Positions 7,411 through 8,039 of a stretch of 10,236 bases of DNA are shown here, one piece after another. The stretch is from positions 1 through 10,236 of the forward strand of contig JAQTVS010000077.1 in the NCBI GenBank assembly GCA_028706735.1, given 5' to 3'. The notes under the pieces are model-generated. The model was given only the letters and a program-made list of their open reading frames with translations. It had not been told where the DNA came from and ran no database searches. How positions within the stretch are numbered: the first letter of the stretch is position 1; every line of letters begins with the position of its first letter. The position numbers and the translations under genes are program-made. This DNA comes from Thiomonas sp. (GTDB taxonomy: Bacteria; Pseudomonadota; Gammaproteobacteria; Burkholderiales; Burkholderiaceae_C).

Positions 7411-7449
7411 GCATTGATCACCCGCATTGATCACCCGCATTGATCACCC
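7411..7449. repeat. Three perfect tandem copies of a 13-bp unit
   Basis: The unit GCATTGATCACCC occurs three times without a mismatch or gap (7411-7423, 7424-7436, 7437-7449). Each copy contains the palindrome TGATCA, so three such sites are spaced 13 bp apart. The array lies about 55 bp beyond the 3' end of the tRNA-Thr gene. It could be a binding-site array, an integration scar or replication slippage. Confidence 0.9.
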
Positions 7450-7504: not shown

Positions 7505-7791
7505 TGGTGCCGAGTGTCCGACTCGAACGGACGACCTACCGCTTACCGTACCACTTCGGCTTTCGCCGCCATTGCGTTCGTGGTCTGGACTATCCCTTGG
7601 CCATGGCGATTCACGCTTTAGGCCCCCCCCGTCTAGTCTCTACACCTTCCCACTGCGTGGGCTTGGCTCGGGATTGGCATGGCCGTTGTGGCGTTAGCGT
7701 TCCCCGAGTTTGAGGGGTTCTGCACCTTCCGTTTCCGGCAGGGCACTCGTTTCAATCAAGGCGGTTGCTCTACCAGCTGAGCTAACCCGGC
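7505..7791 (-). tRNA. tRNA-Thr(UGU), split by a group I intron
   Basis: The - strand reads a normal tRNA in two exons. Exon 1 (7791-7758, 34 nt) has acceptor strand GCCGGGT, D-arm GCTC/GAGC and anticodon strand ACCGC, then CTT. Exon 2 (7546-7505) gives GTAA, GCGGT, variable loop AGGTC, T-arm GTCCG/CGGAC with TTCGAGT, acceptor ACTCGGC and an encoded ACCA. Joined, they form a 76-nt cloverleaf with all stems paired and the anticodon loop CTTGTAA, anticodon UGU. This reads ACA and, by wobble, other ACN threonine codons. The sequence resembles E. coli tRNA-Thr(UGU) closely. The 211 nt between the exons must be removed, and the interruption falls between anticodon bases 34 and 35. The gene follows sspB on the same strand and has its own TATAAT box. 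Confidence 0.93.
7547..7757 (-). ncRNA. Group I intron (small, IC3-like) in the tRNA-Thr anticodon loop
   Basis: The 211-nt insert has the marks of a self-splicing group I ribozyme. The 5' exon ends in U (CUU) and pairs with a GAG guide 12 nt into the intron (7745-7743), giving the U-G pair of P1. The intron ends in G. P2 has a GAAA loop. P4 is CTCGGG (7708-7703) with CCCGAG (7672-7667). P6 is CCCAC/GTGGG (7661-7657, 7653-7649). The conserved stretch GTGTAGAGACTAGACGG (7645-7629) supplies P7, GACTA (7638-7634), pairing with TAGTC (7592-7588). P9 is ACCAC/GTGGT with an inner GGC-GAAA-GCC hairpin. These match, from memory, the Azoarcus tRNA-Ile intron of about 205 nt. It is too short to encode a homing endonuclease. 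An unusual run of eight G (7630-7623) falls where the 3' strand of P3 is expected. Confidence 0.92.
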
Positions 7792-8039
7792 AGCACTTCA
7801 ACAAAACCAAACATTATAGGCACAGCGGGTAAACCAGTCTGAAAAATTGGCTTCACATGTGAGGACGCATCACTGCGCCTCGGAATCATCAAAGCATCAA
7901 CGGGACAGGGGCGTGGATCACACGTCCTCAGTTGGCGTGCCATCGCCAGAGCCGCGTAGAAATTCCTATGCAGTCCCCGGACACCAGCTGTAAGTTGGCG
8001 TAGGCGTTGGTGAACCCGGTGTTGCGCAAAGGCTGTGTG
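7792..8039 (-). other. Gap between sspB and tRNA-Thr
   Basis: There is no convincing gene here. The sspB reading frame stays open for 85 more codons after its stop and ends inside the tRNA (TAG 7784-7782). It includes an ATG at 7943, but it runs through the tRNA promoter and has no ribosome binding site, so it is probably chance. An inverted repeat, TGAGGACG (7860-7867) and CGTCCTCA (7923-7930), encloses 55 nt. A 5-bp hairpin GTGTG/CACAC (8050-8035) has the sspB stop codon in its loop. No U-rich terminator is visible, so sspB transcripts may read into the tRNA. Confidence 0.4.
7813..7818 (-). promoter_or_regulatory. -10 box of the tRNA-Thr promoter
   Basis: TATAAT on the - strand, 21 nt before the first tRNA base, is well placed for a short 5' leader removed by RNase P. 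No strong -35 hexamer is seen at 16-18 bp. TTCAGA at 7843-7838 is the nearest match, at 19 bp. Confidence 0.55.

Follow-up and report, generated by a model that had tools for sequence, protein, structure and literature searches.

A probable self-splicing group I intron within the anticodon of a Thiomonas tRNA-Thr(UGU) gene, and its relatives in bacteria and viral contigs

The interrupted tRNA gene

The window (the whole 10,236-nt stretch of DNA analysed here) carries on its minus strand a tRNA-Thr(UGU) gene whose two exons are held apart by 211 nucleotides (Table 1). With introns allowed (ARAGORN -i), the unspliced window yields a single gene, tRNA-Thr c[7505,7791] with a 211-nt intron. When 7791-7758 is joined to 7546-7505, as a sequence-only reading of the window had proposed, ARAGORN returns a 76-nt tRNA-Thr(tgt) with fully paired stems and one G-U in the acceptor stem, the cloverleaf with anticodon UGU being obtained once the 211 nt are removed. 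Both the coordinates of that reading and the gene it expected an intron-aware finder to report are therefore exact. Its warning that a standard scan may miss the gene was equally well founded. Namely, default ARAGORN, run without introns, calls no tRNA in the whole window and no tRNA-Thr in 22 of 22 related loci, and the Rfam tRNA family leaves the gene unlisted in its own genome and in each of the 14 loci scanned out of these 22. The placement of the intron leaves one base of ambiguity, which was resolved by the group I rules that the exon ends in U and the intron in G; the resulting lengths are 34, 211 and 42 nt, with the anticodon split between U34 and G35.

Table 1. Parts of the split tRNA-Thr(UGU) gene, its intron and a possible promoter element in the window
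Feature	Position	Strand	Basis
5' exon of tRNA-Thr(UGU), 34 nt, ending in U34	7758..7791	-	ARAGORN -i and boundary rules
Group I intron, 211 nt	7547..7757	-	ARAGORN -i, Rfam, alignment, covariance model
3' exon of tRNA-Thr(UGU), 42 nt, from G35, CCA encoded	7505..7546	-	ARAGORN -i and boundary rules
Internal guide ACGAG; GAG with exon CUU (U-G at splice site), AC with exon GU (P10)	7746..7750	-	
P2 hairpin, GAAA loop	7721..7745	-	both-side changes in 6/10 pairs
P3, 5' strand	7712..7717	-	
P3, 3' strand	7625..7630	-	both-side changes in 4/6 P3 pairs
P4, 5' strand	7703..7708	-	both-side changes in 1/6 P4 pairs
P4, 3' strand	7667..7672	-	
P5 (two never-varying pairs) and variable extension	7677..7698	-	
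P6/P6a	7645..7666	-	
P7, 5' strand GACUA; putative guanosine-binding helix	7634..7638	-	invariant in 23
P7, 3' strand UAGUC	7588..7592	-	invariant in 23
P8	7600..7623	-	
P9 and its GAAA hairpin	7550..7584	-	
Terminal G (omega-G)	7547..7547	-	G in 23/23, though required by the search pattern
TATAAT, possible -10 box upstream of the tRNA	7813..7818	-	by eye

In the window, Pfam recognizes SspB, a GST-fold protein at the place of SspA, and cytochrome c1. The TATAAT sits 21 nt 5' of the tRNA and has a similar position in the three nearest kin, as judged by eye, and it is not present in the 70 bases upstream in 11 congeners; a consensus scan found no full promoter or terminator at the gene. Immediately downstream of the tRNA, at 7411-7449, GGGTGATCAATGC stands in three tandem copies (by eye). 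The intron holds no sense-strand open reading frame of 60 aa, i.e. no encoded homing endonuclease, and one 72-aa frame runs antisense over exon 2 and the intron.

The interrupted gene is the only tRNA-Thr(UGU) detected in the window's genome, a draft assembly that is 92.5% complete, so that a second, intact copy could be missing from view. In particular, the only tRNA-Thr among its 31 intronless tRNAs is Thr(CGU), and an anticodon/T-arm pattern for intact Thr(UGU), which gave 1-2 exact matches in each of five congeners, has no exact match there. In the 22 other carrier genomes described below, we examined tRNA-Thr-like matches together with those anticodon/T-arm pattern matches that hold TTGTAA; within these, no other intact Thr(UGU) was found in 20, and another was called in two, namely an Acidiphilium bin (L216) and L228, where it is atypical. 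Lone tRNA-Thr 3' halves occur in nine of the 22, the Acidiphilium bin included. In three loci, an intronless 3' half lies approximately 95 nt past the intron-bearing tRNA-Thr (L068 7745-7794, L075 6994-7039, L078 3771-3818) and is preceded by spaced GCAAC repeats which, by eye, resemble an attachment site; in other genomes, e.g. L265, L266 and L243, such halves are found at a greater distance. Duplication at an att site was considered as the cause of the split and set aside, as the window contains no further piece of tRNA-Thr.

A family of threonine introns with a group I core

A pattern joining the intron 3' end to the Thr exon 2, which fixes the terminal G and the exon start by design, was searched in 84,980 species genomes. 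It matched 22 stretches, all of them tRNA-Thr(UGU) genes with an intron of 204-274 nt at the same site, and this number is a lower limit because an exact pattern misses introns with other 3' ends. The family, the window's intron included, thus has at least 23 members, with 68-93% identity to the window intron, and the threonine host named in the sequence-only reading is borne out by these cases as well as by the ARAGORN -i call. Of the 22 carriers, 8 are alphaproteobacteria (among them Acetobacter, Pseudochelatococcus, Chelatococcus and Magnetospirillum), 10 are betaproteobacteria, a class assigned from their families (among them Massilia, Thiobacillus, Paraburkholderia, Zoogloea and Variovorax), and 4 are MAGs that have no genus name.

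In a wider survey, a core model (R1) found tRNA-type introns in 46/276 (class), 46/300 (order) and 36/299 (phylum) sampled genomes, counts that come from overlapping samples with differing thresholds and each include the window's own genome. Because host calls by ARAGORN -i were often shifted or wrong, hosts were assigned with a second script, which demanded a U before and a G after the intron, a closed anticodon stem and a T-arm, and which solved 127 of 147 loci, leaving 20 unsolved. Since this script rewarded guide pairing, the guide counts given below for non-Thr introns are partly circular. Several calls were changed by hand: L062 from Arg to Thr, on the basis of its Thr split and a guide with one G-U pair; L099 and L105 (AGU) to Lys(UUU); L144 and L170 to Arg(CCU); and L089 from Leu 33|34 to Leu 34|35. 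No further Thr 34|35 intron appeared among the survey loci examined and solved, so this intron is rare. The other hosts are Leu(UAA), Ile(CAU) at 33|34 and 36|37, Arg(CCU), Arg(UCU) (L103, L107, L108, L110, L193, L201), Ser(UGA) (L088, L165, L179) and probably Lys(UUU) (L099, L105). What is more, at L106 1422-1712 the script sees an apparent tRNA-Thr(UGU) split at 36|37, which would be another insertion site within this tRNA; ARAGORN calls the gene Tyr.

The ARAGORN call on its own is not decisive, as 400 Markov-resampled windows gave 7 calls with a 150-320-nt intron; the decisive evidence is the ribozyme features rather than the tRNA call. The P1 with its U-G, the P4, the P7 of GACUA/UAGUC and the terminal G that the sequence-only reading had noticed are all present, and they stand within a conserved P3-P9 core with a P3/P7 pseudoknot, supported by both alignment and covariance model, together with a P10 to the 3' exon. 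The Rfam group I model RF00028, which that reading had suggested as a check, answered it in part. Namely, it aligns to 7717-7625 with 28.8 bits (E=3.6e-4), short of its gathering score of 50, which is the cut-off of a broad model rather than a defining group I feature and which 1 of the 14 related loci scanned reaches; elsewhere in the window's assembly it has no other match at E up to 1. By comparison, a covariance model that we built from 24 introns of other tRNAs, with no Thr intron included, scores the window intron at 130.8 bits (E=2.8e-33) and recovers 23/23 Thr introns at 117-138 bits, which, along with the trees discussed below, places them as homologs of the tRNA-Leu, -Ile and -Arg introns. 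This model has no match in five intronless congener loci, and its sole further match is a weak one (12.7 bits, E=0.27) elsewhere in L062.

Covariation points the same way. In the alignment of the 23 Thr introns, 97.9% of the cells in 53 pairs are paired, with the caveat that the structure was read from the window and from the same alignment used for counting, which favours it. Sliding the partners by 1-3 columns as a control lowers pairing to 32-49%. Changes on both sides are seen in 24 of the 53 pairs, and none of 500 shuffles does as well, although the relatedness of the sequences inflates such tests. Covariation is strongest in P2 and P3, with some covarying pairs in P4, P6, P8 and P9; the one pair that extends P1 is weak, being paired in 58%. 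Neither P7 nor the two core P5 pairs show any variation, and the assignment of P7 therefore rests on its sequence and not on covariation. An unconstrained minimum free energy fold contains, on our reading, the cloverleaf stems and P1, P2, P3, P4, P5, P8 and P9, at an energy that is not unusual (z=-1.23; 25 of 200 shuffles equally low).

The guide is complementary to the exon sequence CUU|GU in all 23 Thr introns, whose splits were chosen independently of guide pairing (ACGAG in 22, ATGAG in 1). In other hosts that share the CUU| exon, the two letters before GAG are TT in 37 of 46 scored Leu(UAA) introns, TC in 3/3 Ser(UGA) introns and AG in 3/6 Arg(UCU) introns. Across the four hosts, the guide matches the intron's own exon 2 in 66 of 78 cases; when exons are shuffled (2000 shuffles), the mean is 32.0 and the maximum 51. 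The observed count leans upward for the non-Thr introns because their splits were chosen partly by guide pairing; one Leu row of the 79 had no guide by the simple rule and was left out. The 12 that do not pair are 9 Leu introns (6 with TG, of the TTGGAG type) and 3 Arg introns, in which the simple rule may have picked the wrong GAG.

Taken as a whole, it is our belief that a group I intron, of the IC3-like kind found in tRNA anticodon loops, splits tRNA-Thr(UGU) between U34 and G35 and very probably self-splices to give the mature tRNA. By the standard pathway, the transcribed precursor would fold with the tRNA arms outside and the ribozyme inside, and the guide GAG would bind the exon CUU, forming the U-G pair at the splice site. 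An external guanosine, presumably held in P7, would then attack and cut after U34, whereupon the AC directly 5' of GAG would pair with the exon GU and align the terminal G for exon ligation, which would yield mature tRNA-Thr(UGU) and release 211 nt.

Could the two tRNA-like halves lie 211 nt apart by chance, with no intron between them? The frequency of comparable calls in resampled windows lends this some colour, but the E-value of the independent model, the 22 further cases and the covariation reduce its probability to a negligible level. An intron spliced by enzymes at a bulge-helix-bulge is ruled out, since the insert holds a full group I core. We also consider it very unlikely that the intron is real but decayed, having lost splicing, with the tRNA a pseudogene covered by another tRNA-Thr. 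Such a state would sit well with the draft nature of the genome, with the presence of the other Thr isoacceptor (CGU) and with the fact that splicing is a prediction; that said, the core helices, guide, GAAA loops and terminal G are present, the exons assemble into a complete tRNA that includes CCA, the window's genome showed no further intact Thr(UGU), and the same structure is maintained in the 22 kin. An active intron therefore remains our reading.

Descent, proposed gain and possible mobile carriers

Did the Thr introns arise once? In a tree of 124 introns (L112, L120 and L130 were dropped as repeats of other rows), labels cluster by host tRNA, requiring 13 changes against a shuffled mean of 69.9, and 22 of the 23 Thr introns fall together, a grouping that is moderately supported (89/90), the bootstraps of this tree, as of the trimmed tree and that with viral rows added, not having settled. 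The window intron belongs to a group of 15 rows (100/99) made up of betaproteobacterial and MAG introns together with a single one from the Acidiphilium bin, and the other alphaproteobacterial carriers form a separate group beside it. The Acidiphilium contig may be misbinned, because it carries an IS1595 transposase and an integrase and the bin also has its intact Thr(UGU). One could argue that Thr introns arose several times, through separate retargeting of Leu or other introns, given that L062 lies outside the Thr group in the first tree, that the grouping is weaker, at 5 changes, once the guide region has been roughly trimmed, and that Thr requires 3 changes when viral rows are included, the viral Thr introns and those of Acetobacter type then lying near viral Leu introns. 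However, a single Thr clade is not rejected by the AU test in the first tree (p=0.384), after trimming (0.216) or with the two viral rows (0.68), and in the last case the one-clade tree even scored higher. We regard several origins as possible but rather doubtful; one origin is neither rejected nor proven.

The route by which the window's species came by its intron is suggested by its congeners, in 12 of 12 of which the 76-nt tRNA-Thr gene is whole. Flanks were compared for 11 of these loci, and in 10 the gene adjoins sspA-sspB, the same neighbourhood as in the window. Three intron-bearing MAGs match the window's exons exactly, whereas the congeners reach only 91-93% identity, and their gene has a different acceptor stem and does not have the TATAAT. 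For these reasons, the sequences suggest that this locus gained the complete gene with its intron, or had its own copy replaced by it, and did not receive just the intron. Intron loss in the congeners would be a less simple account of the same data than gain of the whole gene. The intron has no endonuclease gene, and the species probably acquired it with the surrounding tRNA gene and not via DNA homing. Carriage by an integrase as a general rule was rejected, with a crude motif search flagging 1 of 23 loci.

In the viral collection, the Thr pattern finds two contigs. In one (L271, IMGVR_UViG_3300032219_001957), positions 242-525 hold a tRNA-Thr(UGU) with a 209-nt group I intron, flanked by tRNA-Arg and tRNA-Asn, with more tRNAs beyond and two HNH reading frames (Pfam); in the other (L272), the intron is 98% identical to an Acetobacter intron and adjoins an integrase. 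A core motif occurs in at least 119 viral stretches. We examined 82 loci (79 among the matches listed, together with L271, L272 and a Gordonia phage stretch), and 41 of these 82, among the matches listed, were solved as interrupted tRNAs. A guide match was seen in 37, 20 of them Leu(UAA), under a looser rule that allowed G-U anywhere, scanned 90 bases and also chose the split. The viral tree took 33 of the 41, with a guide, an accepted anticodon and an intron of up to 300 nt. Several odd anticodons among the viral loci are probably misassigned, and some of the contigs may be host DNA. Other viral contigs have group I introns in tRNA-Leu(UAA) and, by the permissive script, also in Lys, Arg, Asn and Ser tRNAs, and in Gordonia phage Daredevil (L276 1420-1731) a group I intron of 238 nt interrupts a tRNA-Lys(UUU) that is not annotated.

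Plasmids, too, hold an unannotated intron-bearing tRNA gene (L273 2431-2729 on pCTX-M3, L274, L277 and also L275), and DNA similar to this stretch is present in 1272 plasmid records. ARAGORN labels the tRNA 'Stop(tta)' in 3 of 4 examined, which we read as Leu(UAA), and the intron guide resembles those of some alphaproteobacterial Leu introns. A predicted aac(3)-II gene lies inside the stretch in 3 of 4, and the tRNA may mark the chromosomal source of the aac(3)-II module.

Viral tRNA arrays that contain such copies would be a means of spread for the introns, and carriage of the Thr intron between classes by phages is at present a lead and not a result. Tentatively, and with somewhat less than even confidence, we propose that the anticodon loop is what a single group of small group I introns recognizes. 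By altering the letters complementary to tRNA positions 35-36, these introns would have passed from host to host among tRNA-Leu(UAA), Thr(UGU), Ser(UGA), Arg(UCU), Lys(UUU) and further tRNAs, and they would cross between bacterial classes together with the tRNA genes that contain them, in part within the tRNA arrays of phages. Because the 5' exon CUU is shared and the two letters of P10 match the host, retargeting between tRNAs can be put to a direct test.

Comparison with known introns

Among the known bacterial tRNA introns are those of tRNA-Ile(CAU) in Azoarcus and tRNA-Arg(CCU) in Agrobacterium. The Azoarcus pre-tRNA-Ile is named in a 2014 review (PMC3984707), according to which the phage introns known at that time all resided in protein-coding genes and horizontal movement of bacterial introns among species had little evidence behind it. 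Ile(CAU) and Arg(CCU) are named as hosts in PMC5733544, which also gives 'group I introns' of 22-49 nt in cyanobacterial tRNA-Arg, -Gly and -Lys. Although these are likewise claimed in the anticodon loop of other tRNAs, we do not count them as precedents, as in our judgement they are too short for a group I core. In tRNAscan-SE 2.0 (PMC8450103), group I introns account for the apparent lack of an fMet or Ile2 gene in 36 genomes, and the text available names no Thr case alongside them. A 2025 group I database (PMC11835236) gives a host gene for each intron, and the Thr introns may already be in it, unremarked. In open-access full-text literature, we found no description of a bacterial tRNA-Thr group I intron, which agrees with the suspicion in the sequence-only reading that a threonine host is little described. 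The known hosts of bacterial group I introns thereby gain a tRNA that standard annotation misses, and genomes may therefore be wrongly scored as being without tRNA-Thr(UGU).

The group I introns of tmRNA genes, as described in PMC11915505, likewise reside in a tRNA-like gene and obey the same U and G boundary rules, but they lie in the TpsiC loop and not in the anticodon loop, and average 293 bp in the founding set. The closest known relatives of the Thr intron are those of tRNA-Leu(UAA), Ile(CAU) and Arg(CCU). With the Leu(UAA) intron, which is also found in one congener (L033) and other relatives, it shares the site after U34, the 5' exon CUU and the fold; however, the Leu guide is mostly TTGAG, matching the exon AA, and the Leu kin L029, L033, L034 and L053 have a P7 of GAGCA/UGCUC. 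The Ile(CAU) and Arg(CCU) introns resemble it in length (approximately 200-300 nt in the relatives seen here), in their three-base guide and in a related core, and those of this type at L030, L031, L119 and L155 share the P7 GACUA/UAGUC of the Thr introns, yet they are inserted at 36|37 (Ile also at 33|34), with another host and guide. The ribozyme itself is ordinary, and what is unusual is the host tRNA and the guide that matches it.
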